Shown here: positions 30,251 to 46,338 of the stretch, one piece after another | Layout of the letters: every line of letters starts with the position of its first letter | Position numbering within the stretch: position 1 is the stretch's first letter | DNA from: Colwellia sp. | GTDB lineage: Bacteria > Pseudomonadota > Gammaproteobacteria > Enterobacterales > Alteromonadaceae | Length of the DNA: 64,000 nt | Reading direction: 5' to 3' | NCBI GenBank assembly: GCA_013215465.1 | Contig: JABSOW010000002.1 | Coordinates: forward strand, 248,001 to 312,000 | Program-made: the position numbers and the translations under genes | The notes under the pieces: generated by a model | The model's database searches: none | Seen by the model: only the letters and a program-made list of their open reading frames with translations | Told to the model about the DNA's origin: nothing

Positions 30251-31738
30251 CTATGTCGTATAGCGCTTTAAAAAATCATCATGACTTAACATGGGCTCTA
30301 AAAGTTGCTGTTTAGTTTGAGATATTTTGTTCAGAGTATTAATAAGCTCTTCGTTATTAAATACTTTAGCCGCTGGATGATAGTCTTGCGGCATAATACC
30401 TTGCCCTAACATGACTTGCAGCCAAGAAGCATCACGAAAAATATCATTATTATCATTATGGATATTTGCGGATTGCTTAAAAACATCTATCTTTTGCTGT
30501 AATCTCGCGGGAATGTCCATATTGCGCATGTCACGCCAGAAGTCAGAATCGTTTCGTTGATTGACATGATAATGAAGAATAATGAAGTCGCGTACGGTTT
30601 CAAACTCTTCCTTTGATTCGGTATTATATAAATCAACAACGGCTTCTGAAATTCCATCATTAGGAAATACTTTGAGTAAGCGAATAATGCCCGATTGAAT
30701 CAAATGAATACTGGTCGATTCTAGTGGTTCAAGAAAGCCACTAGACAAGCCAATCGACACTACATTTTTATGCCATTGTTTGATCGTTCGGCCGGTATTA
30801 AAACTTATTTTTTTAGGTTGTTCTAACGCTTTTGAGTCTAAATTATTCATTAGGACATCATGTGCATCATCATCATTGATGTATTTTGAACTATAGACAA
30901 AGCCATTGCCGTTGCGATGGGCCAGTGGTATACGCCACTGCCAACCTGCCGGGTGTGCGATACTGCGGGTATAAGGTAAGGTATTTTCAAAACGCTCAGT
31001 CGGCACGACTATGGCACTATTTGCGGGTAACCAATGATCCCAGTGTTCATAACCTACCTTTAATGCTTTTTGAATTAGCAAAGCTTTGATACCGGTACAA
31101 TCAATAAACAAATCGCCACTAATTTCTTCGCCACTTCTTAAGCGTAATGCCTGAATAAATCCGGTTTTAGGCGCTATTTTAACCTCGTCAATAAAGCCTT
31201 CAGTGCGTATAACGCCCGAGTTTCCAGCTATCTTACGTAATAACTTACCGTATAGTGCCGAATCAAAATGATACGCGTAGGGTAGATTATGGATGGGGTT
31301 TTGTGCTTTGATTTTATTGAATTTATTGTGATTACAACAGAGGTAGTTAAGATCGAAATCCCACAGAGATGACTGCATTCCTACTTGTTTAGCATGTAAC
31401 CAATGATGTTGAAAATCACAAAATCCCATATTGGCACCTGGTGCGCCAAAGGTATGATAATAACTCTCGCCTGGCACTCGCCAATTCTCAAATTTTATCG
31501 CCAGTTTAATGGTCGCTTTTGTTGCGCTGAGAAACTCTTTTTCATCGATACCAAGAAACTGATTAAATATTTGCAGTGGTGGGATTGTCGCCTCTCCGAC
31601 CCCAATAATGCCAACCTCTTCTGATTCCACCAATTCAACGTCAACGGTCTGATGCAACACTTTTTTTATCAAAGCGGCGGCCATCCATCCTGCTGTTCCT
31701 CCTCCAGCTATCACTATTTTCTTTATTGGCGTTGGCAT
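30251..31738 (-). CDS. Flavin-dependent tryptophan halogenase family protein, second copy
   Basis: This 495-residue flavoprotein has GGGTAGWMAAALIKK near residue 12, VGEATIPPLQIF, KATIKLAIKFENW, WQWRIPLAHRNGNG and FLEPLESTSIHL, so all halogenase hallmarks are present. It is a paralogue of the protein at 628-2142. It lies 140 bp downstream of the paralogous TonB receptor, again with a terminator between the two. It belongs to a sugar-catabolic island and so probably acts with that receptor. The true substrate is unknown. Confidence 0.88.
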   Translation of the reverse strand: MPTPIKKIVIAGGGTAGWMAAALIKKVLHQTVDVELVESEEVGIIGVGEATIPPLQIFNQFLGIDEKEFLSATKATIKLAIKFENWRVPGESYYHTFGAPGANMGFCDFQHHWLHAKQVGMQSSLWDFDLNYLCCNHNKFNKIKAQNPIHNLPYAYHFDSALYGKLLRKIAGNSGVIRTEGFIDEVKIAPKTGFIQALRLRSGEEISGDLFIDCTGIKALLIQKALKVGYEHWDHWLPANSAIVVPTERFENTLPYTRSIAHPAGWQWRIPLAHRNGNGFVYSSKYINDDDAHDVLMNNLDSKALEQPKKISFNTGRTIKQWHKNVVSIGLSSGFLEPLESTSIHLIQSGIIRLLKVFPNDGISEAVVDLYNTESKEEFETVRDFIILHYHVNQRNDSDFWRDMRNMDIPARLQQKIDVFKQSANIHNDNNDIFRDASWLQVMLGQGIMPQDYHPAAKVFNNEELINTLNKISQTKQQLLEPMLSHDDFLKRYTT

Positions 31739-31861: not shown

Positions 31862-31878
31862 AACGAGAGAGCGATTAT

Positions 31879-34788
31879 CTAGAATGAATAATTAACATTG
31901 AGTATATACGATGGTCCAAATTGACGACGAGATGAAACAATGCCACTGGCATCGTCTAACGTCTCTTCAATTTCATCAGCTAAGTTAGTACCAGATAACG
32001 ACACGGTTAAGCCTTTTAGTTGATTAATACCAGATTTATCAAAGTCGTAGCTTATCTGCGCATCAACTAAGTTAACCTTATTTCGAGTCGCATCAGATAT
32101 TTTATTCGAACCACCACGTTCATAGGTCAAAAATGCCGAACGATTCGTTGTTGCAATACGGAATTCAAAACCGTTAACCTGGTAATAAGCCGTCACAGAG
32201 TATGAGTGATCAGATTGACCAGGAATGGCCGTTCCATCTTCTAATTTTGCGTCAACATAAGTTTTAGATGCTGCAATACCTAAGCCGTCTAAGGCATCTG
32301 AAAAAATGCTAAATGGAATGTTGGCGGTTAGTTCATAGCCTTTCACGGTACCCTTGAGTCCATCTTCAAAGAAAGAGTATGTTCCGAAGTTAGGAGGTGT
32401 TGCTAAGTCGCCGGCAGCATAGAAGACGTCAGCGGGTCCATAAATTCCATCCTGCGGAATGACGACATCATGAAAGCCCGAAACAAAGTAATCGGCACCG
32501 CCATTGGTTTCATCATTGCGGAAGTTAATTAATTGGTTACCATCACGGGTCCAGTTAACTAAATCTTTGTAGAAATAGGCAATAGCGACATAGCCTTCCT
32601 CGTCAAAATAGTTCTCATAAGAGATATCGAAATTATTTGATTCCAGCGGATGTAATTTGGGATTACCACTAAACTTTGACCACGGTGAGCCATACTTCTC
32701 TACGGCCGCCTGGCTGTTTGGAACCGTGATATTTTCGACACTCTGTGCAAACTTTACAAAGCCAGAGGCTTTCATTTGATCGATGCGTGCACGGCTAATG
32801 GTTTTGTTTGCGGCAAAGCGAACAAATTGATTGTCGGCAATTTCTAAGCTTAGGTTAAAACTAGGCAGAATATGACTATAATCTTCACTGACATAGGTAA
32901 GACAGCCAGCATCGATGACATCATCATTGTTTTCGTCACAAACTTTGAAATTAGCGCCAATAACTCCGATAGTACCTACAGATGATTGATCTGTTTGTAC
33001 ATATTGAACACCAACATTACCGTTTAAAAACATACCATAAACATCAGTTTCAAAATCACTTTTTACATATAGAGTGATAACTTTTTCTTCTACTTCATAG
33101 GTATCACCCACGCGGTCAGGTTCAAGGAGACCCGCATCATTTTTAATATATGTACCGTCGTTGTAAGGAGCAAAGCCATCATAAGCGACAACATTACCAA
33201 GACCCGCCCAGGTTAAATCTGCGGTGCCATAAATATCTTTTGATGGAATCGATGTGGTATGTGGATAGGCGGTAGTGGTGACAAAATAACCTTTGTTTAA
33301 CTTGTCTTTATAGCGATCTGAATAATTTACCCCTAATGTGATAGTAGTAAAAATGTCACCATCCAAGTTACCTTTAATTTCTAGTTTTACTGTGGTTAAC
33401 TCTTCAGTGAAATCAGCATAGTTCATGAAACCATCTTGAGCATTTAGATAAGAAAAAGGGGTACCATTAGCTTGTAATACATCGGTCTCAAATTGATCCG
33501 CTAAACTTGCCAGTCCACCACCCCATGTCTGAGGGCCGGTTAATTGCAATAAATTTGGATCTGACAAAGCATCAAGTCCTGTTGAACTTGAAAAAATAAT
33601 GCCATCTTCAGTCATTTGAAATTCGCGCGAGCCTAATTGTGACGAATTTAACGCACCAGAACGAGCTAGGCCCGCATAAGACTCACCGCGTAAATCGCGT
33701 TTTTTTGACTCACTGTTGGCAATATCAACTTCAACGGACCAGTCATCATTAATGAAGTATTCAACATTTAAACCAATTGTCTGTAATTCACCTTCTTTTT
33801 GTCTTGGATCAGTTCGTAATACCGGATTTGAGCCAATCATGGTGCCTGTTGAATTAACGCCGCTGCCGACCACATTGGTGGAGGAAAATGACTCAACAAT
33901 GCCGCGTCGTATACCATTATCTGAATAATTAATATCTAGGACATCAAAAATAACGTTTAAACTATCGGTGGGTTGATATTGAATCACCGCCGAAATAGTC
34001 TCTCGCTCGAGACGAGTACTTGTCACATGGCTATCAATCCCTGTCGGTAAAATTTGTCCGGCATCATTTTCTGCATAACCCCAAACGCCGTATTTACGTT
34101 GGTTATTTGGCGATTCACTGGATGCCAACGATACGGCGACACCGATAGTATCGTCTGCAAATTTCTCGACGAAGGAAAATGCGAATCGGTGCCCTTTGTT
34201 ATTAAATTCAGGGTTATCAGAATTACGGCCACCAAGTTCATAACTGGTATTAAGTGTAATGGACTCTTCTGCTTGTAAAGGACGTACAGTTTGTAAATCG
34301 ACCGTGCCACCAATGCCTTGGACTATTAAATCCGCTTCGGTGGTTTTATAAACGGTCGCGCCAGTCATTATTTCAGACGGATATAAATCATATTCCACGC
34401 CTCGATTGTCACCAATACCAATGAGTTCACGACCATTTAGAGAGGTGCCGACAAAATCTTCCTTAAAACCACGTACGGAAATACCTGAGATACGGCCGCC
34501 GCTACGTTCACCACTAAGGCCGGGTAAACGGGCTAATGATTCAGCAATAGAAGAGTCCGGTAATTTACCAATATCTTCAGCTGATAATGATTCAACCATC
34601 GATGTACTGCTCATCTTTATTGCTTGTGAGCGAGCTAAAGCACCACGTATCCCTGAGACTAAAATAACTTCTATTTCTTGTTCACCCGATTTTTTAACGT
34701 TATCATCTGCTGCAAAGGCTATGCCTGTACTTAAGGCCGATGAAACGGCTGCTGCGATGATGCCAATTTTATATAATTTGTTTCCCAT
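31879..34788 (-). CDS. TonB-dependent outer-membrane receptor, paralogue of the receptor at 2326-5232
   Basis: This 969-residue protein has a signal peptide ending in AFA (about residue 26), VILVSGIRGAL at the TonB-box position, and a plug with SAEDIGKLPDSSIAESLARLPG and ISVRGF. The barrel ends in VNYSF. It aligns along its whole length with the first receptor, well over half the residues being identical. An AGAGGAAG ribosome-binding site precedes the ATG. Its promoter has the AAATCGG direct repeat shared with the Gfo/Idh and GMC operons, so it probably imports the glycoside degraded by those enzymes. Confidence 0.92.
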   Translation of the reverse strand: MGNKLYKIGIIAAAVSSALSTGIAFAADDNVKKSGEQEIEVILVSGIRGALARSQAIKMSSTSMVESLSAEDIGKLPDSSIAESLARLPGLSGERSGGRISGISVRGFKEDFVGTSLNGRELIGIGDNRGVEYDLYPSEIMTGATVYKTTEADLIVQGIGGTVDLQTVRPLQAEESITLNTSYELGGRNSDNPEFNNKGHRFAFSFVEKFADDTIGVAVSLASSESPNNQRKYGVWGYAENDAGQILPTGIDSHVTSTRLERETISAVIQYQPTDSLNVIFDVLDINYSDNGIRRGIVESFSSTNVVGSGVNSTGTMIGSNPVLRTDPRQKEGELQTIGLNVEYFINDDWSVEVDIANSESKKRDLRGESYAGLARSGALNSSQLGSREFQMTEDGIIFSSSTGLDALSDPNLLQLTGPQTWGGGLASLADQFETDVLQANGTPFSYLNAQDGFMNYADFTEELTTVKLEIKGNLDGDIFTTITLGVNYSDRYKDKLNKGYFVTTTAYPHTTSIPSKDIYGTADLTWAGLGNVVAYDGFAPYNDGTYIKNDAGLLEPDRVGDTYEVEEKVITLYVKSDFETDVYGMFLNGNVGVQYVQTDQSSVGTIGVIGANFKVCDENNDDVIDAGCLTYVSEDYSHILPSFNLSLEIADNQFVRFAANKTISRARIDQMKASGFVKFAQSVENITVPNSQAAVEKYGSPWSKFSGNPKLHPLESNNFDISYENYFDEEGYVAIAYFYKDLVNWTRDGNQLINFRNDETNGGADYFVSGFHDVVIPQDGIYGPADVFYAAGDLATPPNFGTYSFFEDGLKGTVKGYELTANIPFSIFSDALDGLGIAASKTYVDAKLEDGTAIPGQSDHSYSVTAYYQVNGFEFRIATTNRSAFLTYERGGSNKISDATRNKVNLVDAQISYDFDKSGINQLKGLTVSLSGTNLADEIEETLDDASGIVSSRRQFGPSYILNVNYSF

Positions 34789-34902
34789 TACGACTTCCTC
34801 TATTATTGTAAAGTTGCTGCACTATTAGGTGTGATTGTTATTTTTTGTTGGTTTTTTATGCGTGATTGATGTTAATAGATGGTCGTTATTATTGTTAAGA
34901 TA

Positions 34903-34930
34903 AAATCGGTTTTAACTATGATTAAATCGG
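34903..34930 (-). promoter_or_regulatory. AAATCGG direct-repeat operator upstream of the TonB receptor
   Basis: AAATCGG occurs at 34903-34909 and 34924-34930, a 21-bp period or two helical turns, as expected for an AraC-family dimer on direct repeats. It lies 115 bp from the receptor start. A further conserved block, GATTGATGTTAATAGAT, starts at 34864 and is found at exactly the same distance from the repeat upstream of the GMC operon. On the minus strand it gives TATTAA, a possible -10 box. Confidence 0.75.
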
Positions 34931-35090
34931 CGCTGTGTTAAATTTGTTCCTGTTGACAGCAGCATAGTGTGGTCAGTTAAAGGCCATATCGTTGGTTGAT
35001 AAGTGTGAGATAAAATGTTTGGATTGGTAAGATCAACGGTTGAAAGTTTGATGCTTATATTGAAAACGATTGTTATTTGATCTGTAATTA

Positions 35091-35124
35091 GCAGGGGGAT
35101 AATTTTAAGAAATCATCCCCCTGC
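35091..35124 (-). terminator. Strong hairpin downstream of the SSS symporter
   Basis: GCAGGGGGAT at 35091-35100 pairs perfectly with ATCCCCCTGC at 35115-35124, a GC-rich 10-bp stem with a 14-nt loop, 35 bp past the symporter stop. There is no clear T tract on the minus strand, so it could stabilise the mRNA 3' end instead of terminating. Confidence 0.5.
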
Positions 35125-35158
35125 GCTAGACTGAATTTAGTTTAAAATAAAGTCACTG

Positions 35159-36721
35159 TTACCACCAAGTCGCATACAAGGCGCCGATAATAATAATTAA
35201 GGCTATTGCCGCAATATTAAAGGATTTGGTGGTGTCGAAGTTTATGGATGAAATATCAACGCCCTGATGTTCAACCTCACCCCTGTGGGCCAAAGACACA
35301 AGCACAGCAAGCACCAAACAGGATAAAAAGACTAAACCAACCCGGTCGATGAAGGGTAATTCTGGCCACCAAATTTTAAGAATAAACGATAACACTGCCG
35401 AGCTTATTGCGGCAGTAAGCGCACCATTAGCCGTCGATTTATTCCAAAATAAGCCAAGTAAGAAAATCACCACGATGCCCGGAGTAAAGAAGCCGGTGAA
35501 TTCTTGGATATATTGAAAGGCCTGATCAAATTGGCCCAATAATGGTTGGGCGACCAGTAAGGCGACAGATAATGCTATTAAGGTGGTTATTCGACCGATT
35601 CCTACATAGTGCCCTTGGCTCTGATTAGGCTTTATGCGCTCGTAGATATCCATGGTAAAGATGGTTGCAATGCTGTTGGTCATCGAAGCCACCGAAGAAA
35701 CAATTGCAGCGACTAGCGCGGCAAAAATTAGTCCTTTCAACCCTTCTGGCATCAATTGCATCATTGCGGGATAGGCATTATCTGGTGAAGGTAAATTAGG
35801 GTGTAATACCACCGCTGCTAAGCCTGGCAACACGACGATAATAGGCATTAGTAGTTTTAGGTAGGCTGCAAATGCGATGCCCTTACGCGCTTCATCAATA
35901 TTCTTAGCAGCCAGCGCTCGTTGAATAATATATTGATTAAATCCCCAATAAGAAAGGTTCATGATCCACATGCCACCAATCAATACCGAAATACCTGGCA
36001 AACTCGCATAATGAGGATTATCACTATTTAAAATCATGTCAAATTTTTCTGGAGCGACATTGGTTAAGATCTTAAAACCTTCGATAATTCCCTGACCGTG
36101 GCTCACTTCATCGAGCGCTAAATAAGACAGTACCAAGCCTCCGAAAATTAGCAGCACGACCTGGATGATATCGGTAAAAGCCACGGCTTTAAGGCCGCCG
36201 TAGAGAGAGTAGGCGACGGAAAATAACGATAAAAATATCATGCCAAACATCATATCAACCCCGGCAATGGCGTTAATTGCTAAGCCGCCTAGCCACAGAA
36301 TACTGGTTAGGTTAACGAGTACATAAACCCCAATCCAGAAGATGGCCATTAGCGTTTTTACCCGTGAGTCATAACGCTGTTCGAGGAACTGTGGCATGGT
36401 ATAAATTTCGCTTTTTAGAAAGATAGGTAAAAAATATTTACCTACAATCAACAAGGTGATTGCCGCCATCCATTCATAAGACGCAATGGCCAGGCCTATG
36501 GCGTAACCTGAACCAGACATGCCAATAATTTGTTCAGCCGAAATATTGGCTGCTATCAAGGAGGCGCCAATAGCCCACCAGGGCAACGACTTGCCGGCAA
36601 GAAAGTAGTCATCGGTACTACGGTCATGATTTTTTTCGCTACGCGAGATCCATAATGCAATCAATAATAAGCCGATCACATAGATGACAAATATCGAAAC
36701 GTCTAAACTAGATAAATTCAT
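35159..36721 (-). CDS. Sodium:solute symporter of the SGLT type
   Basis: This inner-membrane transporter has about 13-14 hydrophobic helices and SSS-family motifs: STDDYFLAGKSLPWWAIGASLIAANISAEQIIGMSGSGY near the N-terminus, and YSLYGGLKAVAFTDIIQ. The N-terminus fits sodium/sugar cotransporters. The ATG at 36721 (MNLSSLD) with AAAGG upstream is preferred over one 11 codons earlier, giving 520 residues. It follows the MFS gene after a hairpin and precedes the TonB receptor promoter, so it probably moves the same sugar inward. Confidence 0.9.
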   Translation of the reverse strand: MNLSSLDVSIFVIYVIGLLLIALWISRSEKNHDRSTDDYFLAGKSLPWWAIGASLIAANISAEQIIGMSGSGYAIGLAIASYEWMAAITLLIVGKYFLPIFLKSEIYTMPQFLEQRYDSRVKTLMAIFWIGVYVLVNLTSILWLGGLAINAIAGVDMMFGMIFLSLFSVAYSLYGGLKAVAFTDIIQVVLLIFGGLVLSYLALDEVSHGQGIIEGFKILTNVAPEKFDMILNSDNPHYASLPGISVLIGGMWIMNLSYWGFNQYIIQRALAAKNIDEARKGIAFAAYLKLLMPIIVVLPGLAAVVLHPNLPSPDNAYPAMMQLMPEGLKGLIFAALVAAIVSSVASMTNSIATIFTMDIYERIKPNQSQGHYVGIGRITTLIALSVALLVAQPLLGQFDQAFQYIQEFTGFFTPGIVVIFLLGLFWNKSTANGALTAAISSAVLSFILKIWWPELPFIDRVGLVFLSCLVLAVLVSLAHRGEVEHQGVDISSINFDTTKSFNIAAIALIIIIGALYATWW

Positions 36722-36894
36722 ATTTTTAAAACCTTTAATTTTTCTGTGCCGCAATTCTTATGCAATGTAGATATTGAGCGTGCTAGTACAAAATGACGCT
36801 GACAAATGAACTAATCATGCCTATAGTTCTCTGGTCAGGTGCCATCTCATACTTTGGCGATTAGATTCTGTGTGGCAAGAGGGGTCTGTGATCT

Positions 36895-36927
36895 AAGCGC
36901 TCTTTTCGATGATGGAGAAGAGCGCTT
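36895..36927 (-). terminator. Hairpin between the MFS and symporter genes
   Basis: AAGCGCTCTT at 36895-36904 and AAGAGCGCTT at 36918-36927 form a perfect 10-bp stem with a 13-nt loop, 22 bp after the MFS stop codon. No T tract follows on the minus strand. It could be a processing or attenuation site that separates symporter expression. Confidence 0.45.
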
Positions 36928-36948
36928 GCGCTATATTCACAAATATAC

Positions 36949-38175
36949 CTAGAGTGTTTGGCTTATGTTTGTGTCACTTGTGGCGTGTCGCTGCCTACGC
37001 ATATAGATAAACAGTGCGGTAAAACTCACGATAAGTAGCATGGGGAACACAATCAGCTCACCCAATACGGTTTGTCCGGCCACTAATTCTGGATTTTTAA
37101 CTTGTTGATCTATGGCTAGATGGCGTGCTTCGTCGATCCAAGTGCCAATAATCGGGTTATAGATACTCACGGCAAACATGCCGGCACCACTAAGGATTGA
37201 TAAACCTAAGGCGCCTGTTTGTGGCTGATTTTCTGCGACAAAACCTAGCATGGTCGGCCAAAAATAAGTGACGCCGAGGGCGAAAATGATCGCACTAAGG
37301 TAGACTAAATTTCCGGTTGCTATACTCATCGAATAGATACCAATGCAAGCAATAACGGCGGATAAGAGCAATACACCAATTGGGTCTAGGCGTTTGATTA
37401 AAGGGCCTGCGAAATATCGACCAACCGCCATAATACCGGTAATCAAGGCCATGATTAACATGGGTGATGCACCTGATTCTCCTAATATTCTGTCTATCCA
37501 TTGCTGAGTGCCAAGCTCGGTTGTTGCGGTTAATGTCATGCAAAAAACCATAAATAAAAATAATGGAGAGGAGAGTGCCCTTAGGCTACTCAAGCCAGTC
37601 TGAGACGTTGAATTAAAGGTCGGTAAGGTATACTTGAGTAACATTGCGCCATAAATAACCGTAGGTATTAGCATCAATGCGATTTGTAATTGCCAGCCTA
37701 AATCTAAATCGGTCATAAATTTAGATGCCAAGGCGCCAAGCACGATACCAGCTGGAAACCAGACATGAAAACGGTTAAGCATGATGGTTTTTTTATCACG
37801 ATAAATCTCTGTGATTAGCGGATTACAACCCGCTTCTACCGCGCCGTTAGCAAAGCCAATGAAAAATGTTGATATTAGTAGGCTCCAAAAACCAGTGGCG
37901 TTAATCGTTAAACCTAATCCTAATAGATGAAAAACAAACGCGATGCTGAGCAAACGCTTAGCTCCTAGTCTATTATAGACAGCTCCACCAAGTAAGGTAG
38001 CGACAGGAAATCCGAGAAAAGCCATGCTATTGACCCAACCCAGTTGACTGTCCGTCAATTGATATTCACTCGCTAGCTGGCTTAAAATACCGGCTCGAAT
38101 GGCAAAGGTCATGGCGGTTACTGTTAATGCTATACAACACAATCTAAAAATTGCTTTTTCATTGTAATTATTCAT
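36949..38175 (-). CDS. MFS sugar transporter
   Basis: This 408-residue protein has about 12 membrane helices and an MFS-type loop 2-3 motif (GGAVYNRLGAKRLL). Helix 5 has NGAVEAGCNPLITEIY, which recalls the fucose permease-like FGHS family. An AGGAG site lies 9 bases before the ATG. The start overlaps the isomerase gene by 8 bp, placing it in the Gfo/Idh operon. It probably carries a sugar or its keto-derivative across the inner membrane. Confidence 0.85.
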   Translation of the reverse strand: MNNYNEKAIFRLCCIALTVTAMTFAIRAGILSQLASEYQLTDSQLGWVNSMAFLGFPVATLLGGAVYNRLGAKRLLSIAFVFHLLGLGLTINATGFWSLLISTFFIGFANGAVEAGCNPLITEIYRDKKTIMLNRFHVWFPAGIVLGALASKFMTDLDLGWQLQIALMLIPTVIYGAMLLKYTLPTFNSTSQTGLSSLRALSSPLFLFMVFCMTLTATTELGTQQWIDRILGESGASPMLIMALITGIMAVGRYFAGPLIKRLDPIGVLLLSAVIACIGIYSMSIATGNLVYLSAIIFALGVTYFWPTMLGFVAENQPQTGALGLSILSGAGMFAVSIYNPIIGTWIDEARHLAIDQQVKNPELVAGQTVLGELIVFPMLLIVSFTALFIYMRRQRHATSDTNISQTL

Positions 38176-39244
38176 CGCACTTCTCTCCTATTGCTAATCC
38201 GAGTATTTGCTGATTAAGTTGTTGATCTGCCGCAACAGCAGCAAAATGGTCAAAGGCAATTGAGGTAGGTTCGATAATGTGATCCGTGATAAACGGAGCA
38301 CCTTCTAATGCTCCTTGCTCAGGGGATTTAATACAACATTCCCACTCTAATACAGCCCAGCCATCAAAGCCGTATTGGGTGAGTTTGGAAAATATTTTCT
38401 TGAAATCAATTTGGCCATCACCTAAAGAACGGAATCGACCTGCTCGATCTTTCCAGTCTAAATATCCGCCATACACGCCCACTTTGCCGGTCGGGTTAAA
38501 TTCTGCATCTTTGACGTGAAAAGCTTTAATCCGCGGGTGGTATAGGTCAATAAAAGCGAGGTAGTCTAGCTGTTGCAGCAAGAAATGGCTCGGATCATAT
38601 AAGATGTTTGCTCTGGGGTGATTATCTACGGCGGCTAAAAAATACTCGAAAGAGGCTCCGTCATGTAAATCTTCACCGGGATGTAACTCATAACAAAGGT
38701 CGACTCCTGCCTGATCAAAAGCATCAAGAATGGGGAGCCAACGCTGAGCAAGTTCCGTAAATCCTGCTTCAATTAACCCCGGTGGACGTTGAGGCCAAGG
38801 ATAGAGGGTTGGCCATAATAATGCACCAGAAAATGTAGCGTGGGCTTTTAATCCCAGGTTTTTACTGGCGATTGCGGCGAATTTTAATTGCGCTATGGCC
38901 CACTTAGTACGAGCCTTCGAATTATTGCGATATTGTGCGGGGGCAAAACTATCGAACATTTGATCATAGGCAGGGTGTACCGCAACGAGTTGCCCTTGAA
39001 TATGAGTCGATAACTCGCTTATTTGTAATCCGGCCTTAGTAACAACAGCAGTAATCTTGTCGCAATAAGTGAGATCCTTTGCCGCGCGTTCAAGATCGAT
39101 AAAACGACTATCGTTAGTTGGAATTTGTACTGCCCGATAACCAAGATTATAGGCCCATTGACAAATGTTTTCTAAGTTATTAAATGGGGCAATGTCTGAT
39201 GCATATTGGGCAAGAAAAATTGCAGGTCCTTTAATTTTTTTCAT
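38168..39244 (-). CDS. Sugar phosphate isomerase/epimerase (AP endonuclease 2 fold)
   Basis: This 358-residue cytoplasmic TIM-barrel protein has metal-ligand type motifs YELHPGEDLHD, ILYDPSHFLLQQLD, IKAFHVKDAEF and AVLEWEC. It overlaps its neighbours by 14 and 8 bp. Members of this family beside Gfo/Idh/MocA oxidoreductases commonly isomerise or epimerise keto-sugars. In this island a role in handling 3-keto-glucose or a similar product is plausible (inference). Confidence 0.87.
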   Translation of the reverse strand: MKKIKGPAIFLAQYASDIAPFNNLENICQWAYNLGYRAVQIPTNDSRFIDLERAAKDLTYCDKITAVVTKAGLQISELSTHIQGQLVAVHPAYDQMFDSFAPAQYRNNSKARTKWAIAQLKFAAIASKNLGLKAHATFSGALLWPTLYPWPQRPPGLIEAGFTELAQRWLPILDAFDQAGVDLCYELHPGEDLHDGASFEYFLAAVDNHPRANILYDPSHFLLQQLDYLAFIDLYHPRIKAFHVKDAEFNPTGKVGVYGGYLDWKDRAGRFRSLGDGQIDFKKIFSKLTQYGFDGWAVLEWECCIKSPEQGALEGAPFITDHIIEPTSIAFDHFAAVAADQQLNQQILGLAIGEKCDE

Positions 39245-40403
39245 TATCTATCTCTGCTAAAGTCGATGGGGAAGCTATATTGAACGTGTGCCATTTTTGT
39301 GATGATTGGCTGGCAGCCACAGTATTTTCAATAAAAGCCATGCCGCGAATAGCCTGTTTGATACCAGGAACGTCATATTGCTTACCGTCTGGATTTTTTA
39401 ATAGCTTACTAAATTGACGATAGATATTGGCAAACGCTTCAAGGTAACCCTCCGGGTGGCCTGCTGGGGTGCGGATATTATCAAGAGCGTACTCGCATAA
39501 TTCGCCAACACCACTGCGAATTATGCGACTCGACTGGTTGGGATACTTCATTAGCAGTTCATTGGGGTTGTGCTGTGACCAGGTTAAACTAGCTTTATCA
39601 CCGTAGACCTTGATATTTAAATTATTTTCTTCGCCTATGGATATTTGGCTCGCAATTAATACGCCGCGCGCGCCATGGTTAAAGCGTAATAATACAGTGC
39701 CGTCATCGTCTAACAGTCTACCGTCTACCGTGGTATTTAAGTCAGCACAAATCTCAGTGATTTCCTGCCCACTGATGTATTCCGCTAAATTTGATGCGTG
39801 CACGCCAATGTCGGCCATACAACAGCTGATACCCGATAATGCGGGGTTAAGGCGCCAAGATGCTTGTTTAGTGCTTTCATCATCTTTGCTACTAAGCCAT
39901 CCTTGAGGGTATTCAACAACTATTTTGACTATTTTTCCTAAATCTCCCTGAATCACTCTATGCCTAGCTTCCTTAACCATTGGGTAACCGGTGTAGGTGT
40001 GGGTTAAAGCATAATTAATATTATGCTTTAATATTAATTTTTCTAGCGCGATGGCTTCGCCGAGATTTAGCGTAGCAGGTTTGTCGCTGATGACATTAAA
40101 ACCGTACTCGATAGCCATTTTTGCGATAGGGAAATGCAAATGATTAGGCGTCACTATTGCTACCATGTCTATGCGATCATCTTGGCGCAGAGCTTCCTGA
40201 TGTAACATCTCTTGATAACTGCCGTAACAACGAGATTTATCTAGATAGAGTGAGCAGCCAAACTCAATAGATTTTTGTGGGTCGCTACTAAAAGCGCCGC
40301 AAACCAACTCAATTTGATTGTCCAGTTGAGCCGCTATACGGTGTATTTTGCCGATAAAAGCGCCAGGGCCGCCCCCGATCATACCTAATCTCAATTTACG
40401 CAT
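39231..40403 (-). CDS. Gfo/Idh/MocA family NAD(P)-dependent oxidoreductase
   Basis: This 390-residue protein has an N-terminal Rossmann motif (RLGMIGGGPGAFIGKIH), a conserved VTPNHLHFPIAKMAIEYGFNVISDKPATLN with the catalytic lysine, and DIGVHASNLAEYISG with the usual histidine region. AGAGGA precedes the ATG. It is the first gene of an operon with the isomerase and MFS genes and lies 72 bp from the AAATCGG operator. Family members oxidise or reduce sugars at C3 in 3-keto-glycoside pathways, which suits the neighbourhood. Confidence 0.9.
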   Translation of the reverse strand: MRKLRLGMIGGGPGAFIGKIHRIAAQLDNQIELVCGAFSSDPQKSIEFGCSLYLDKSRCYGSYQEMLHQEALRQDDRIDMVAIVTPNHLHFPIAKMAIEYGFNVISDKPATLNLGEAIALEKLILKHNINYALTHTYTGYPMVKEARHRVIQGDLGKIVKIVVEYPQGWLSSKDDESTKQASWRLNPALSGISCCMADIGVHASNLAEYISGQEITEICADLNTTVDGRLLDDDGTVLLRFNHGARGVLIASQISIGEENNLNIKVYGDKASLTWSQHNPNELLMKYPNQSSRIIRSGVGELCEYALDNIRTPAGHPEGYLEAFANIYRQFSKLLKNPDGKQYDVPGIKQAIRGMAFIENTVAASQSSQKWHTFNIASPSTLAEIDNEKN

Positions 40404-40474
40404 TAATTCCTCTTACAAGTATTAAACTTAATGGTAATCTATCTTAATGGTTGGCCGTATTTGTAGTTAAGATG

Positions 40475-40502
40475 AAATCGGTTTTAACTATAACAAAATC
40501 GG
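40475..40502. promoter_or_regulatory. AAATCGG direct-repeat operator between the Gfo/Idh operon and the PAS-AraC gene
   Basis: AAATCGG is at 40475-40481 and 40496-40502, again a 21-bp period. It is 72 bp from the Gfo/Idh start and 67 bp from the divergent PAS-AraC start, so it may serve both, including autoregulation. Confidence 0.75.
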
Positions 40503-40568
40503 CGTCATGTTTAATTTTGTTGTTAGTTGTGATAACGTGTGATTTGGCTAATTATTTGAAGTTATTTT

Positions 40569-41357
40569 ATGCAAGACAATGAAAATAATAAATGTATTAA
40601 AAACCTGATTGATTTGTTTGGTGTTAAACAAATCATAAAAATGTTTGATTTAATGCCTGATATTCTATTTTGGATAAAAGATGTTAATGGTGGAATAGTG
40701 TACGGAAATAAATTTTTTCTCGAACATATCGGCGTGCAAAATTTAAACAAAGCGATTGGTTGTACCGATTTTGATTTTTCACCTTATCATATTGCTAAAC
40801 AATTCACTGTTGATGATCAAAAAGTGCTTAAGGGTGAATCAGTTCATAATAGGCTCGAGTTGAATATTACCCCAAGTGGAGAAACAGGTTGGTTCACCAC
40901 ATCAAAATGCCCTTTATTTGATGATGAAAATCGCACGATAGGTTCTTATGGGATATCGAGACATCTTGAGAAAACATCATTGGCATTAGCAGGTATGGAT
41001 GCCCTCAAAGTACCCGTTGAATATATTCGTACCCATTACATGGACGAAATTCCACTAGCTGAACTTGCTGAAGTTAGCTGCTTGTCAATAAGTGCATTGG
41101 AACGTCGGTTTAAGAAACACTTAGATAAAACTCCGAAACAGTTTATCAATGAAATACGTTTGGAAAATGCCCGACGCTTACTCGTTGAAACGAATTTACC
41201 GATAGCAACAATAGCAAATGATGTTGGATTTTCGGATCCCAGTTATTTTAGCAAACAGTTTAATCAGCTGTTTGGGCAGCGCCCATCGATGTCACGCTGT
41301 GCGCACGCTGATTCATATACCCATGATACTTCAAGATACGAGTTTCAGGATGACTGA
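40569..41357 (+). CDS. PAS-AraC transcriptional regulator, probable activator of the glycoside island
   Basis: This 262-residue protein has an N-terminal PAS domain (about 20-135: MPDILFWIKDVNGGIVYGNKFFLEHIG, then a C-terminal strand ending in GSYGISRHLE). Two AraC helix-turn-helix motifs follow (IPLAELAEVSCLSISALERRFKKHLDKTP and IATIANDVGFSDPSYFSKQFNQLFG). It is divergent from the Gfo/Idh operon and probably binds the AAATCGG repeats at three promoters. Its last 15 or so residues (YTHDTSRYEFQDD) are encoded by the end of a MITE-like insertion that supplies the stop codon. The HTH motifs lie before this and are intact. Confidence 0.88.
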   Translation: MQDNENNKCIKNLIDLFGVKQIIKMFDLMPDILFWIKDVNGGIVYGNKFFLEHIGVQNLNKAIGCTDFDFSPYHIAKQFTVDDQKVLKGESVHNRLELNITPSGETGWFTTSKCPLFDDENRTIGSYGISRHLEKTSLALAGMDALKVPVEYIRTHYMDEIPLAELAEVSCLSISALERRFKKHLDKTPKQFINEIRLENARRLLVETNLPIATIANDVGFSDPSYFSKQFNQLFGQRPSMSRCAHADSYTHDTSRYEFQDD

Positions 41358-41584
41358 GCGATTCATGATCAAGGCGCATCTTTTTATTAAGGGTTATCCC
41401 ATTAAAAATAGATGCAATGAAGAGCATGATTTGCTCAGTCATCCCCGACGGGCTGGTTTAGAAACGCTTTATGCTACGTTATTGATTTCGACAAGGAGAA
41501 CAACCATTCTCTTCAATCAATGCCTGACCTAAAGATGTTTCTAATTCCAGCTGAATCCGGCATCTTGAGGTAACATGGGTATAT
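41315..41584. mobile_element. MITE-like element, copy 1, inserted in the 3' end of the PAS-AraC gene
   Basis: This 270-bp block is about 85 percent identical by eye to 52050-52314. Its ends are inverted repeats: ATATACCCATGATACTTCAAG on the left and the reverse complement of a matching right end (CTTGAGGTAACATGGGTATAT, 41564-41584). The centre is a long imperfect palindrome: GGATGACTGAGC (41348-41359) pairs with GCTCAGTCATCC (41433-41444), with an inner GCATCT/AGATGC stem. It has no transposase gene and is therefore non-autonomous. Confidence 0.82.
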
Positions 41585-41838
41585 ACTTAACTTGAGCTGT
41601 GGATAATCATTATTGCCAATAACGTCGGTAATTTAGTGTAGTTTAGTGCAATAAACTGGCGCTAGTCACTAAAATATCGTCTCTGTAAGTTAATTGGGTT
41701 GCTATTTATTTAATTTCAACGCGTTACAGGTGTCTTATCCACAGTGAAGTTGAATTAAACGGTATGAAGGAAAGATAAAATCAGACAATGATTAAAGCAG
41801 CCTGATTTTATCAATATTAACCTAGCGTTTTTTAAGCG

Positions 41839-42648
41839 CTAAAGTGCCTTAATTTTGATGTTACGAAACCAAACTGGGTCATTGTGATCTTGTAAGCCAA
41901 TCAATCCTTGCACCGCGACATTGTGCCAATTCGGGTTCAAACTCGGAAACTTGCTATGGGATATCATTTCGTGCCATTGCGGCGTATCCATAACATACTC
42001 AACCACGATAACGCCATTTTGTTTATGACTAACGTGTCGGTTGTTGACCGTTATTTCAATGTTATTCCATTGTCCAATGGGTTTGGCGTTCTGCGGCTGC
42101 GCAGCAATTAAATCATAAAGGGAACCTGCTTGACGATTACCGTTCTTTCCTCTGTTGGCATCGGGATGGCCGTGGTTATCCAATATTTGCATTTCTGGGG
42201 CATTACGCCAAATATAGTCGCCTGTTTCGAAATGTTGCTTGTTATTTTCACTGCCTAAATAGAAAATTCCAGAATTTCCATTTTTCGAAATTTTCCATTC
42301 AAGTTTTAAAGTAAAATTTTGATATTGTTGTGGGAAGACGATATCACCACGATCAGCTTTCTCATCTGCGGTCATATTTACATCGCCCTTCATGTGCAGT
42401 GTGCCATCAATGACCTGCCAGTTAGAAGGGAAATCCGAGCGTTTAAAACCGCGCCATTGACCTGAACTCTGGCCATCAAAAAGCAGTTGCCAACCCTGTT
42501 GCTGCTCAGAAATACTTAAACTGTTGTGCGCTAGAGTAACAGGTTCAAGCTGCACATTAGATTTTTGACAACCCAATAACGTTGTTACCACAGCGAGCCC
42601 AACGAGAGCACGAATGGAACATGCTTGAATATTTTTAATTTTAAACAA
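41839..42648 (-). CDS. DUF1080 lipoprotein, probable 3-keto-glycoside hydrolase/lyase
   Basis: This protein of about 269 residues has a lipoprotein signal (TTLLGC). A single jelly-roll DUF1080 domain (3-keto-disaccharide hydrolase family, PF06439) follows: QLLFDGQSSGQWRGF, FTLKLEWKISKNGNSGIFYL, EMQILDNHGHPD, and a terminal VWFRNIKIKAL. Family members act on 3-keto-glycosides made by flavin or NAD dehydrogenases. The start is a TTG at 42648, placed 6 bp after GAGAGG; another TTG at 42654 abuts the Shine-Dalgarno sequence too closely. It is third in the GMC operon. Confidence 0.85.
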   Translation of the reverse strand: MFKIKNIQACSIRALVGLAVVTTLLGCQKSNVQLEPVTLAHNSLSISEQQQGWQLLFDGQSSGQWRGFKRSDFPSNWQVIDGTLHMKGDVNMTADEKADRGDIVFPQQYQNFTLKLEWKISKNGNSGIFYLGSENNKQHFETGDYIWRNAPEMQILDNHGHPDANRGKNGNRQAGSLYDLIAAQPQNAKPIGQWNNIEITVNNRHVSHKQNGVIVVEYVMDTPQWHEMISHSKFPSLNPNWHNVAVQGLIGLQDHNDPVWFRNIKIKAL

Positions 42649-42660
42649 AATCAACCTCTC

Positions 42661-43281
42661 TTATAGTGACCAAACTTTAGTGTTTTCGTGTACCGGCATA
42701 GAACCGATGTAGTGACCAGGAATAGGATCGTAAGCTAAATACTGTTCGGCAATGAGTTCCGAAGTGAAGTAAGCTTCAATAGTTAACTCTCGTAGTGAGA
42801 TAAGAAAACCATATAACTGATGTAATACCTGTTGTGACGCCGGTGGATTTACCTCAGCCACCAAGGCAAAGATGTTTGCAGTATCGGTGCCATTGAGCTG
42901 ATAAAGAGCCTTAACAAAGCGTTGTTGTTGCTGTGGCGATGCTTGGGAAAAGGACTGGTTATTTTTGGCCTTAAATTGCTGCTCAAATTGTGCAATGCCT
43001 TCTTTGAACTGTTGTCCTTGCTTGTGGTCGAAAATATCAAGGTAAAGTAAATCAATAAACTGTGGAACGTCAACATCATCTGAACCTGGGGTCTGGCCTT
43101 TAGGAATTATACATTCCGCTACCGCCGATATTATCGCACCTTGTTCGGGCGAGAAAAATTTTGGTGTCCAGCTTAAGTTAGAACGTTGTTGGCAAGACTG
43201 CAGTACACTCATGATTGTCACTGAAGATACTATCACTCCCGCACTTAAGGCAATTTTTTTAATGGCTTGTCTTCTATTCAT
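42661..43281 (-). CDS. Gluconate 2-dehydrogenase subunit 3 family protein
   Basis: This 206-residue protein has an N-terminal RRQAIKKIALSAG (twin-arginine-like) followed by a hydrophobic stretch and a lipobox-like LQSC. The body has FFSPEQGAIISAVAECIIP and DVDVPQFIDLLYLDIF, typical of the small subunit that partners and exports membrane GMC flavoproteins. It starts 2 bp after the GMC gene stop. The GMC protein has no signal of its own, so it is probably carried out of the cell by this Tat-type subunit. Confidence 0.85.
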   Translation of the reverse strand: MNRRQAIKKIALSAGVIVSSVTIMSVLQSCQQRSNLSWTPKFFSPEQGAIISAVAECIIPKGQTPGSDDVDVPQFIDLLYLDIFDHKQGQQFKEGIAQFEQQFKAKNNQSFSQASPQQQQRFVKALYQLNGTDTANIFALVAEVNPPASQQVLHQLYGFLISLRELTIEAYFTSELIAEQYLAYDPIPGHYIGSMPVHENTKVWSL

Positions 43282-43283
43282 TT

Positions 43284-44993
43284 TTATAACCTCTTCATCT
43301 TGAGTTGTTCGGCAGCATAATTAGCCGCACGCGCAGTAAATGCCATGTAGGTCAGCGACGGATTTTGACATGCAGATGATGTCATAAAGGAGCCGTCAGT
43401 AACAAAAACATTTGGCACGGTATGAACTTGATTGTGCTTATTTAGGATCGAGGTCTTTGGGTCATGGCCCATGCGAGCAGTCCCCATTTCATGAATACCA
43501 AGGCCAGGGCCTATTTGTTGCTCAAACGTTTGGACATTTTTAAACCCTGCATTCTCTAAGATACTTTTTGCTTTTTTCTTCATATCTTTTCGCATGTTAA
43601 GTTCATTTTCTTTCATTTCAACGTCGAAGGTTACCGTCGGCAGTCCCCATTGATCTTTCTGTTCATAATCAAGGAACATTTTATTATCATGAGCCGGTAA
43701 AAACTCGCCGAAGCCCATGATACCCATACGCCATGGACCCGGTGCGGTAAGTTCTTTTTTTAATTCCTCGCCAATGGTGAGCTCCTGGATACTACGCGAC
43801 CAATTTTCTCTTCCCGCCGACCCTTGAAAACCATAACCGCGGATAAAGTCAACTTCTTCTGAATTTTCATGCAAATTATGGAAGCGAGGGATATAAACTC
43901 CGTTTGGACGCCTTCCTTTATAATATTTATCGTCAAAGCCATCGATCATGCCTGCCGCGCCTATGCCAAGATGATGATCCATCATATTATGACCTAATTC
44001 ACCTGAATCATTGCCTAGACCATTAGGAAAGCGTGTGGACTTAGAATTAAGCAAAATTGATGTGGTGGCGACTGTTGATGCACAGCAAAAAATGATCTTT
44101 GCTTCGATAAACAGCTCTTTATGAGTTAAGGTATCAATAACTTTTACCCCGGATGCTTTTCCGGTTTTTTCGTCATAAATAATAGAGTGAACAATGGAAT
44201 TAACTCTAATTTCCAAGTTGCCGGTACTGTGGGCAGCAGGTAGTGTCGATGACAGGCTACTAAAATAACCGCCAAATGGGCAGCCGCGCATACAACGATT
44301 TCGGTATTGGCATTTACTACGATTATTAAACTCTTTGTCGCCAGTGAGATGGGCGACGCGCCCCGGCGTTACCACCAAGTCAGGATTTTGTTTAGCTATC
44401 TCACTTTGCAAATGTTGTTCTACGCAGTTTAACTCCATCGCGGGTAAGTATTTTCCGTCAGGTAATTGGCTCAAACCGATATTGTCACCTGTGACACCAA
44501 TAAATTCTTCAACGTGATCATACCAATGAGATATGTCTTTATATCGCACAGGCCAATCGACAGCGATACCATCCTTTTTATTGGCCTCAAAATCAAGGTC
44601 GCTTAAACGATAGCTGTGACGACCCCAAGTGATTGAGCGACCTCCCAAATGATAACCTCGGATCCAATCAAAACGTTTAATTTCGTTATAGGGATGTTCG
44701 TTATCATCAACAAACCAGTGGGCAGTGCTTGGCGAATTGACAAAGCCAGTTCTCGCTTGCTTAATTTGACGGTTATTTTGTTCTGGCGTGATTTTTCCCC
44801 GATATTTTTGATCCCAAGGATCGTCAGACATCGTGGTGTAATCTTTGATGTGTTCTACGTGGCGGCCTCGTTCCAAGACGAGCGTACGCAGACCTTTTTC
44901 ACACAATTCTTTTGCGGCCCAACCGCCTGAAATTCCACTGCCAATGACTATGGCGTCATATGGCGTTTGTTCACTATTCTTATTATTTATCAT
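43284..44993 (-). CDS. GMC-family FAD oxidoreductase, probable glycoside 3-dehydrogenase
   Basis: This protein of about 569 residues has FAD-binding AIVIGSGISGGWAAKELCEKG and LERG at the N-terminus. It also has a GGRSITWGRHSYR motif, a cysteine-rich CQYRNRCMRGCPFGGYF, and C-terminal IHEMGTARMG and QNPSLTYMAF with the catalytic His and Asn. Paired with subunit 3 and a DUF1080 gene, it fits periplasmic dehydrogenases that oxidise sugars at C3. Upstream ATGs at 45059 and 45041 exist but lack ribosome-binding sites. The ATG at 44993 (MINNKN), with AGG 9 bases ahead, is preferred. Confidence 0.85.
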   Translation of the reverse strand: MINNKNSEQTPYDAIVIGSGISGGWAAKELCEKGLRTLVLERGRHVEHIKDYTTMSDDPWDQKYRGKITPEQNNRQIKQARTGFVNSPSTAHWFVDDNEHPYNEIKRFDWIRGYHLGGRSITWGRHSYRLSDLDFEANKKDGIAVDWPVRYKDISHWYDHVEEFIGVTGDNIGLSQLPDGKYLPAMELNCVEQHLQSEIAKQNPDLVVTPGRVAHLTGDKEFNNRSKCQYRNRCMRGCPFGGYFSSLSSTLPAAHSTGNLEIRVNSIVHSIIYDEKTGKASGVKVIDTLTHKELFIEAKIIFCCASTVATTSILLNSKSTRFPNGLGNDSGELGHNMMDHHLGIGAAGMIDGFDDKYYKGRRPNGVYIPRFHNLHENSEEVDFIRGYGFQGSAGRENWSRSIQELTIGEELKKELTAPGPWRMGIMGFGEFLPAHDNKMFLDYEQKDQWGLPTVTFDVEMKENELNMRKDMKKKAKSILENAGFKNVQTFEQQIGPGLGIHEMGTARMGHDPKTSILNKHNQVHTVPNVFVTDGSFMTSSACQNPSLTYMAFTARAANYAAEQLKMKRL

Positions 44994-45393
44994 TGTTATA
45001 AACCTATTTGTTAAGGAATTCCTGGTGTGATGATGTGCCATGTTGTGAAATCTGTTCATGATGATTCAACGTGGAGTAGCTAACAAATATATTCACCCCC
45101 CCATTGAGTTCGAGTTTGCTAGACCAACTAATCTTTGAGCTGCTTGATGCTGCAAGTACGCAATCGATTCAGTAATACTTAAGCCAAAAAACGTGGTTCT
45201 TTCTCTGGTAAATTCAGCTTCCACCGTTTTTTTTTGTGCGACATTTAGCTTTGATTACTTTGTTAGGCATTGGGACTATTGCTATCTCTAATATTTTTAT
45301 CATCTGAGCTGGTCACTTTTATTCACTCTCTTGAACTGGTTGTTTTTAATACTCGATTGATGTTAATAGATAGCTGTTTTTGTTGTTAAGATA

Positions 45394-45421
45394 AAATCGG
45401 TTTTATATATGAGTAAATCGG
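45394..45421 (-). promoter_or_regulatory. AAATCGG direct-repeat operator upstream of the GMC operon
   Basis: AAATCGG is at 45394-45400 and 45415-45421, with the same 21-bp period as the other two sites. The block GATTGATGTTAATAGAT starts at 45355, the same 39-bp distance as upstream of the TonB receptor. The site is about 400 bp from the preferred GMC start, so the mRNA leader is long or an intermediate promoter exists. Confidence 0.72.
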
Positions 45422-46074
45422 CGTCGTTTTATATTTGACCAACGTTTAAGTCGATGTGAAAAATTACATTTAGGGTTATATTGATTTGGTTGGTGTGAAT
45501 AAAAATGTATGTTTGATCGTAGAAAGAACGCTAACATGGCTTGCCAAAAAAATCGCAATGGAAGCCAACCTAAACTGAGAAACAACACTTCCTGTAACTT
45601 TGTCGAGTTTTTGTATTGTAATTTGTTTTCGCAAGGTGAGGTATAAACTATTAGACATCAGGGGCACAAATAATAACGCTGGTGTGATTGGACACTGCAT
45701 GTTGTTATGTCGGGTATTTTTCATGATTGGATGTTTATTGACTGATTCACCAGCGCATATTTAACAAGTATCTTTTTTAAACATAGTGTATTACGTTCAA
45801 AAACTACCAATAAAAATAAATATGTGATCATTCTAAATGGACTAAATACTCCAATAACATCGTTGCTTTCAATCACACACGTCAGCTATTGCTCAATCAA
45901 GCACCTTGTTCTTGAAAATTTATCCTCATTAATATTTGATCATTAACTTACTGGTATTGGTATAACTAAAGAGTATCCTTTGTGCTGTTAGGACTAGCTA
46001 ATACCTAAAATATTAGCTAGTCCTAACAAAAAATTGAGCTTTATTGATGAGCGTTTATATTAGTATTTTAGAGT
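45422..46074. other. Gene-poor stretch between the glycoside island and the ferredoxin
   Basis: About 650 bp of AT-rich sequence with only short overlapping open frames on the minus strand (up to 82 codons, 45476-45724). None has a ribosome-binding site or recognisable domain. It may hold remnants of a lost gene. The trhP-ferredoxin direct repeat begins at its right edge near 46075. Confidence 0.5.
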
Positions 46075-46080
46075 GGACTG

Positions 46081-46326
46081 CTAGCTGTGCATTTTTAAAA
46101 ATTTAGCGAGTAAGCTATCTTCATCTTCAACATGGTTGGGATCAGGTTTTACACAATCAATAGGGCACACGCTCACACAGGTGGGTTTGTCATAATGACC
46201 AATACACTCGGTGCATTTATCAGCATCTATTTCGTAAATGTGCTCACCTAAGGTAATCGCTTCATTAGGGCATTCAGGATCGCACATATCACAATTAATG
46301 CAGCTGTCTTCAATAAACAAAGCCAT
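46081..46326 (-). CDS. yfhL: YfhL-type 2[4Fe-4S] ferredoxin
   Basis: This 81-residue ferredoxin has two cluster motifs, CINCDMCDPECPNEA and CTECIGHYDKPTCVSVCPIDC, the second with the long insertion typical of YfhL and the Allochromatium ferredoxin class. It lies 12 bp downstream of trhP on the same strand. In E. coli, YfhL and TrhP have both been linked to tRNA uridine hydroxylation, so the operon layout fits an electron-donor role (inference for this organism). The start ATG is identical in the duplicated copy. Confidence 0.92.
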   Translation of the reverse strand: MALFIEDSCINCDMCDPECPNEAITLGEHIYEIDADKCTECIGHYDKPTCVSVCPIDCVKPDPNHVEDEDSLLAKFLKMHS

Positions 46327-46338
46327 ATGAACTAAAGC

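Follow-up and report, generated by a model that had tools for sequence, protein, structure and literature searches.

Three direct repeats and the operons behind them

The stretch analyzed here (the window) comprises 64,000 nucleotides of Colwellia sp. (GCA_013215465.1, contig JABSOW010000002.1, positions 248,001-312,000 of the forward strand). It carries a gene for a regulator in which a PAS_4 domain is joined to an AraC-type DNA-binding domain (PAS-AraC), together with three operons headed by genes for a TonB-dependent receptor, a Gfo/Idh oxidoreductase and a GMC oxidoreductase (Table 1). Upstream of each operon lies one copy of the direct repeat AAATCGG-N14-AAATCGG, and comparison across related genomes indicates that these three repeats are very probably operators at which the PAS-AraC protein would activate the three operons.

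An exact search of the window returns three matches, all on the plus strand, at the positions given by a first-pass annotation of this DNA, and each lies upstream of the operon start that the annotation had assigned to it (TonB receptor, 34788; Gfo/Idh, 40403; GMC, 45059). With the three repeats on the plus strand and the three operons on the minus strand, operator and target keep one orientation. The annotation had seen the repeat nowhere else, and an exact scan of the genome (4,675,572 bases in 80 contigs) likewise finds only the window's three copies, which fall within 10.5 kb. When up to two mismatches to the pattern are allowed, the genome holds 36 matches, one of them with one mismatch and 32 with two.

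The extent of the element can be read from 114 loci around PAS-AraC orthologues of other genomes (about 45-68% protein identity), scanned on both strands for AAWTCGG-N14-AAWTCGG with at most two mismatches from 400 bp upstream of the regulator start to 60 bp inside it. A site is present upstream of the orthologue in 97 of the 114 loci, in the same orientation in all 97 (98 of 115, again all in one orientation, when the window is counted). In 88 of the 114 loci, pairs of AAWTCGG-like heptamers (up to one mismatch per heptamer, within 250 bp) have a spacing of exactly 21 bp; the next commonest spacing occurs in three. A weight matrix built without the window from 96 of the loci (site within 250 bp; effective number 47.6; 39 bits in total) has its strong columns at G-N-TA-N2-A-N2-AAWTCGG, then 21 bp on at A-N-TRNRACAAAWTCGG, and then CG. 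The repeated unit is therefore about 16 bp long and consists of two boxes, TA and WTCGG, about one helical turn apart. The operator as a whole spans about 40 bp, with two half-sites of about 16 bp (common pattern TR-N2-A-N-AAAWTCGG) arranged head to tail at a 21-bp period around the core AAATCGG-N14-AAATCGG. The repeat of the first-pass annotation is thus real, but its 7-bp unit was too short, the half-site covering about 16 bp and the second being followed by CG. Directly repeated, bipartite half-sites in a phase of about 21 bp are the layout of AraC/XylS-family operators, and the earlier suggestion that a two-turn spacing fits such operators stands.

Applied to the window, the matrix scores the three sites at 49.3, 47.5 and 43.6 bits and the next place at 8.7 bits. 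A matrix from the 55 loci whose regulators are less than 56% identical to that of the window gives 46.9, 42.7 and 40.3 bits, with 11.6 bits for the next place and a maximum of 11.0 bits in 30 Markov-simulated windows. In 1.89 Mb, the reversed matrix finds no place of at least 18 bits, while the true matrix finds 133, mostly training sites. A further profile, R1, was made from 117 sites of at least 28 bits, reduced by identity to 52 and again excluding the window. The genome-wide motif scan that the first-pass annotation had suggested as a check reveals a motif that is not scattered: by R1 the three sites stand at 36-38 bits and the next best place in the genome at 18.5 bits. Two weak R1 matches, C9:90683 (18.5 bits, E 0.013) and C45:114460 (16.9 bits, E 0.039), were rejected as sites.

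Table 1. Operators, predicted promoters and genes of the proposed regulon, in window coordinates
Feature	Coordinates	Strand	Remarks
Operator 1	34894..34932 (core 34903-34930)	+	Promoter side towards TonB receptor; matrix 47.5 bits, R1 37.3 bits
Operator 2	40466..40505 (core 40475-40502)	+	Between Gfo/Idh and regulator genes, promoter side towards Gfo/Idh; matrix 49.3 bits, R1 38.3 bits (E 7e-9)
Operator 3	45385..45424 (core 45394-45421)	+	Promoter side towards GMC operon; matrix 43.6 bits, R1 36.3 bits
Predicted core promoter 1	34869..34898	-	-35 TTAACA 34893-34898, 18 bp, -10 TAACAT 34869-34874; by eye; overlaps GATTGATGTTAATAGAT
Predicted core promoter 2	40441..40470	-	-35 TTAACT 40465-40470, 18 bp, -10 TAAGAT 40441-40446; by eye
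Predicted core promoter 3	45360..45389	-	-35 TTAACA 45384-45389, 18 bp, -10 TAACAT 45360-45365; by eye
PAS_4-AraC regulator, 262 aa	40569..41357	+	PAS ~26-133, two HTH ~153-241; Pfam PAS_4 2e-11, HTH_18 4e-24, HTH_AraC 3e-17
TonB-dependent receptor, 969 aa	31879..34788	-	First gene of operon 1; Pfam Plug; TIGR01782 476.5 bits (cut-off 310)
Tryptophan-halogenase family	30251..31738	-	Downstream of receptor, putative member of operon 1; Trp_halogenase 6.5e-179
Gfo/Idh oxidoreductase, predicted 3-keto-sugar reductase	39231..40403	-	First gene of operon 2; Pfam; solved relative 3v5n 4.9e-94
TIM-barrel enzyme, predicted 2-hydroxy-3-keto-glucal hydratase	38168..39244	-	PDB 8ro4 E 1.7e-162, residues 1-350
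MFS transporter	36949..38175	-	Operon 2; Pfam MFS_1 5.8e-26
Sodium:solute symporter	35159..36754	-	May end operon 2 (gap of ~194 bp), putative member; SSF 1.4e-68
GMC oxidoreductase, predicted FAD sugar C3 dehydrogenase	43284..45059	-	First gene of operon 3; GMC_oxred_N, GMC_oxred_C; fructose dehydrogenase large subunit 2.8e-32
Gluconate_2-dh3 small subunit	42661..43281	-	Pfam 1.5e-26
3-keto-disaccharide hydrolase family (PF06439), predicted 3-keto-glycoside cleaving enzyme	41839..42654	-	Pfam 9.9e-47; PDB 4hxc 1.9e-58, 8rr2 9e-57, others

Predicted promoter layout and probable target genes

On its operon side, each operator runs into a predicted core promoter. The half-site nearer to this promoter ends in TTAnC, a motif that would overlap the -35 element, and the putative -10 element follows 18 bp further. 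This overlap makes activation through contact with RNA polymerase at that place the most likely mode of action. The layout recurs across 125 sites of at least 25 bits in 115 loci: columns outside the operator carry about 0.1 bit and rise to 0.3-0.5 bits about 20 bp past the TTAnC end, with TATAGT or TATTAT present there in many of 25 inspected sequences. The window's -10 elements lie within 1 bp of this conserved column. The first-pass annotation had further reported that two sites share a second string, GATTGATGTTAATAGAT, at an identical 39-bp offset. A search with 0 or 1 mismatch confirms this, finding the string only at 34864-34880 and 45355-45371, in both cases 39 bp from the repeat. Since the TAACAT of the predicted -10 elements falls within these positions, the string holds the predicted -10 region, read from the opposite strand.

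Within 900 bp downstream, 108 of the 125 sites face a homologue of the window's pathway genes, and none lies inside such a gene. By nearest homologue, the 108 divide into Gfo/Idh (79), TonB receptor (21), and GMC, 3-keto-disaccharide hydrolase, MFS and TIM barrel (two each). Eighteen extra loci of regulator-bearing genomes were chosen by hand among higher-scoring R1 sites outside the training regions; 15 are on another contig than the regulator or more than 1 Mb away, and three (L291, L293, L294) share its contig at a distance of about 9-14 kb. Here 17 of 19 sites face pathway-type genes: TonB receptors in ten loci (with a halogenase in nine), Gluconate_2-dh3/GMC in two, 3-keto-disaccharide hydrolases in two and Gfo/Idh in three. 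Of the remaining two, one faces a DUF7133/cytochrome c protein and the other a gluconolactonase-like protein.

At class II AraC-type promoters the proximal half-site overlaps the -35 element, and by this analogy the overlap predicted here argues for activation. That PAS-AraC binds instead as a repressor, to be released by its effector, appears unlikely. The -35 overlap would suit repression as well, and operator 2 stops 66 bp short of the regulator's own start and could serve to repress that gene. However, a repressor has no need of a set phase or orientation, whereas the operator, its TTAnC end and the weakly conserved -10-like element keep one phase over 125 sites, and the 108 sites named above turn their promoter side towards a pathway gene.

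Judged by homology, the targets of the proposed activation fit the oxidation, elimination, hydration and reduction of 3-keto-glycosides, with a TonB receptor in addition. The TIM-barrel enzyme matches 8ro4, a solved 2-hydroxy-3-keto-glucal hydratase, over the whole chain and is a predicted hydratase of this pathway, and the putative cleaving enzyme reaches 159.8 bits against PF06439 (cut-off 26.8). The GMC oxidoreductase with its Gluconate_2-dh3 partner is a candidate C3 dehydrogenase whose best solved relative is a fructose dehydrogenase; about 300 bp separate the predicted -10 element from the GMC start. The Gfo/Idh protein is a candidate reductase by family match, and reaches no NCBIfam equivalog cut-off.

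A second tryptophan-halogenase and TonB-receptor pair (628-5232), beside a pullulanase gene, is 67% and 75% identical in DNA to the pair at 30251-34788. The matrix scan of the window finds no operator upstream of it, and the next-best matrix place, at 3479 (8.7 or 11.6 bits), lies inside this paralogous receptor gene. Elsewhere in the window, a direct repeat of 741 bp (99.2% identical; 27646-28386 and 46078-46815) flanks a 17.7-kb stretch with the catabolic genes. A frame that looks ferredoxin-like by eye and the terminal part of a peptidase U32 gene fall within the repeat, whose left copy therefore contains a U32 fragment (27908-28369). The catabolic island may have been acquired or exchanged at these repeats.

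The regulator and the distribution of its probable site

All three domain models—PAS_4, HTH_18 and HTH_AraC—match every one of 50 aligned PAS-AraC proteins (the window protein and 49 of the 110 orthologues, out of 114, that passed length and stop filters). The C-terminal domain has the two helix-turn-helix (HTH) motifs of the AraC/XylS family, with HTH_18 and HTH_AraC above cut-off, and residues 149-243 match the DNA-binding domain of AraC (2k9s, E 9e-12). S173 and S175-F181 are invariant in the 50 proteins and lie around the first HTH, as placed by analogy; this agrees well with an operator whose TCGG is near-invariant. The genome encodes one full-length match of the PAS-AraC type, the other 18 matches being HTH-only or PAS-only at no more than 39% identity. 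The first-pass annotation had called it the only AraC gene in the island; it is not the only one in the window, which also has an AraC gene at 14994-15896 and an HTH match at 28448-28759 in a 153-aa frame. The window further holds two copies of an AraC-AzlC block (15474-17109 and 28373-30001, 93% identical), the AraC frame of the second copy being truncated. The 3' end of the PAS-AraC gene is itself overlapped by one of two window copies (41317-41586 and 52050-52318) of a 270-bp element with terminal inverted repeats, seen by eye, that resembles a miniature inverted-repeat transposable element; it supplies the last ~13 codons, residues not common to the orthologues, and has 49 matching stretches in the genome, 22 of them near full length.

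The association between regulator and site was surveyed in 395 genomes of the family, of which 105 have the regulator (a match at E ≤ 1e-50) and 290 lack it, by the matches listed in an R1 scan with stricter filters and 16 scored candidates per genome, weaker matches being left aside. At E ≤ 1e-3 a site is found in 102 of the 105 genomes with the regulator versus 5 of the 290 without (Fisher, 4e-84); at E ≤ 1e-4 the counts are 96 versus 2, and at E ≤ 1e-2 they are 104 versus 14. Because regulator and pathway travel together, the hydratase gene (a match at E ≤ 1e-80; 167 of the 395 genomes) served as a control. Sites at E ≤ 1e-4, 1e-3 and 1e-2 occur in 93, 99 and 101 of the 102 genomes with both regulator and hydratase, in 3 of 3 at each threshold with the regulator only, in 0, 1 and 3 of 65 with the hydratase only, and in 2, 4 and 11 of 225 with neither. 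The site is nearly absent where the hydratase occurs without the regulator, so its distribution tracks the regulator and not the enzymes; in those 65 genomes the control of the hydratase must differ. The full operator is diagnostic in other genomes, unlike the 14-base core, which occurs exactly in 57 of the 395 genomes (33 of the 105 with the regulator and 24 of the 290 without). Exact AAATCGG-N14-AAATCGG matches in four genomes of genus g14 (G654, G684, G700 and G539) have a different shared centre, TAATAGAAAACTAG-like, and are perhaps another element.

Several observations weigh against assigning the operators to PAS-AraC as an activator. In 17 of the 114 loci there is no good site upstream of the regulator, and a displaced operon, as in L122, L133 and L181, where the target operon is away from the regulator and the site sits before the operon, accounts for few of them. 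For 17 of the 125 sites, the gene faced is not from the families of the window; judged by eye, first open reading frames there resemble Gluconate_2-dh3 subunits, secreted TIM-barrel enzymes and a sulfatase, besides a few proteins of unrelated kinds. Conservation of the -10 element is weak at 0.3-0.5 bits per column. As R1 was trained on regulator-bearing genomes, the positive co-occurrence rate is partly circular; this circularity does not touch the negative rates, the three sites of the window or the 18 extra loci. Five genomes have a site at E ≤ 1e-3 and no regulator (G457, G499, G574, G606 and G732), absence here meaning no match at E ≤ 1e-50, which a very diverged regulator could escape. 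G574 is 59% complete, and its site faces a TIM-barrel gene. In G606, regulator matches at E ≤ 1e-8 reach HTH level only and no full orthologue is found, but locus L275 (6477-6720) keeps an operator of 55 bits next to 50 residues left over from the C-terminus of a regulator (6477-6626, minus strand; 86% identical to the C-terminus of the L150 regulator), so that this locus has decayed. On the other side of that operator, a short frame looks by eye like a Gfo/Idh start, but a blastn comparison with gene starts from relatives gave no confirmation.

These exceptions bear on a further alternative, in which the operators belong to another, unlinked regulator of 3-keto-glycoside genes and PAS-AraC is a mere neighbor. 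The genome does encode other AraC proteins, and the five regulator-lacking genomes would suit this explanation. It is nevertheless quite improbable given that, at E ≤ 1e-4, the site is missing from every genome with the hydratase but no PAS-AraC and present in 93 of 102 with both, and that the operator has an AraC-like layout and adjoins a PAS-AraC orthologue in 97 of 114 loci.

Likeness among the three window sites extends into their flanks (83% identity over 96 bp between sites 1 and 3, 79% over 77 bp between sites 1 and 2). As this exceeds the operator, and as the window holds other repeats, the copies might represent a mobile element or a repeated promoter cassette that recombination has spread, devoid of regulatory meaning. 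We give this very little credence: the same operator stands before the same gene families in about 100 genomes, no site of at least 25 bits lies inside those genes, and conservation falls to about background beyond the operator and the -10 element. Copying of an operator-promoter cassette may still be the origin of sites 1 and 3. Chance recurrence of the 14-base pattern, for all that its exact core turns up in 24 of 290 regulator-lacking genomes, is next to impossible for the three sites and was rejected on the genome scan (three exact copies within 10.5 kb, zero elsewhere in 4.68 Mb), the R1 scores from an independent profile and the simulated-window control.

Assignment of the three operators to PAS-AraC, as the activator of the three operons, thus keeps its high probability. 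The same site together with the same regulator in about 100 related bacteria marks a real gene circuit of a familiar kind. The proposal of the first-pass annotation that the three operons form one predicted PAS-AraC regulon is supported at the level of sequence by the orthologue-linked sites and by a co-occurrence that holds under the hydratase control.

A proposed circuit and its known relatives

From the computed features—operators, spacing, conservation, co-occurrence, -10 phase and gene families—we infer binding, activation, enzyme activities and an effector as follows. The two HTH motifs of one AraC-type domain would enter successive major grooves and so read the two boxes of a half-site, and two protomers would sit side by side on the pair of half-sites 21 bp, or two turns, apart. 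Activation of operon 1 would provide uptake through the TonB receptor; that of operon 2, the Gfo/Idh reductase, the 3-keto-glucal hydratase and the MFS transporter; and that of operon 3, the GMC dehydrogenase, its small subunit and the 3-keto-glycoside cleaving enzyme. Sensing most likely falls to the PAS domain, with a pathway intermediate as the probable signal, and the inducer would be made by the pathway or taken up for it. Acting at operator 2, the regulator could also control its own expression.

Predicting the operators of AraC-family proteins from sequence is difficult. For this orthologue group, the operator emerges from about 100 genomes with a clean negative control, and the resulting 39-bit sequence tag points to further genes of 3-keto-glycoside catabolism, unlinked ones included. 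The result also identifies the likely regulator of these genes and opens the way to a direct test of what the PAS domain senses. Bipartite half-sites, the predicted -10 element within the second string and the family-wide circuit are additions to the first-pass annotation. Activation by AraC-type proteins at direct repeats is of a known kind. In the literature titles and abstracts searched we found no description of the PAS-AraC orthologue group, its operator or its regulon; regulon databases, the contents of RegPrecise papers and most subscription papers lay outside that scope, and an earlier prediction is possible.

AraC at araI1-I2, RhaS and MelR are AraC/XylS-family activators that act at direct-repeat operators. 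PAS-AraC resembles them in its two HTH motifs, in the head-to-tail half-sites at 21 bp, in the proximal half-site lying over the predicted -35 element and in the divergence of the regulator gene from its target. In contrast to AraC, its sensor is a PAS_4 domain rather than AraC's own ligand domain, and it differs from all three in having its own half-site, TR-N2-A-N-AAAWTCGG, and predicted 3-keto-glycoside genes as targets.

The PAS part alone matches four solved chains at E ≤ 0.001, namely 7dwm (the best, 9e-6) and 6ugl, 6kju and 6ide (1.7e-5 to 1.8e-5; about 4e-9 when the PAS is searched with the family profile). The last three, which the search names only as HTH/LuxR-family regulators, we take to be the quorum-sensing regulator VqmA. 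By a count made by eye along the printed 6ugl chain, F67, F99 and K101 stand at the VqmA numbers. These residues are described as critical for DPO binding (PMC10426928). In the alignment, with positions counted by eye, two of the three are kept in PAS-AraC, F67 as F79 and K101 as the invariant K113, whereas the F99 position is the invariant T111, and an AraC-type HTH domain takes the place of VqmA's LuxR-type output. By this comparison the PAS domain likely holds a small-molecule pocket with a layout like that of VqmA and another chemistry. As a tentative extension, which we hold to be possible though doubtful, a re-tuned VqmA-like pocket with threonine at the F99 position would sense the pathway's own 3-keto sugar or 2-hydroxy-3-keto-glycal, and the AraC output would switch on uptake, oxidation, elimination, hydration and reduction together, as a dedicated, family-wide one-component circuit in Colwellia- and Alteromonas-like gammaproteobacteria.

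For the pathway itself the closest comparison is the Agrobacterium GlycDH-Gfo-OGE-HYD operon, for which glucoside oxidation, elimination, hydration and reduction are described (PMC10628242); the word 'regulator' is absent from the main text of that paper. The window shares with this operon a Gfo oxidoreductase, a hydratase-like TIM barrel (8ro4) and a flavin dehydrogenase for the first step. It differs in that its likely cleaving enzyme belongs to the 3keto-disac_hyd family rather than being OGE, and in that a TonB receptor would be under the same control.

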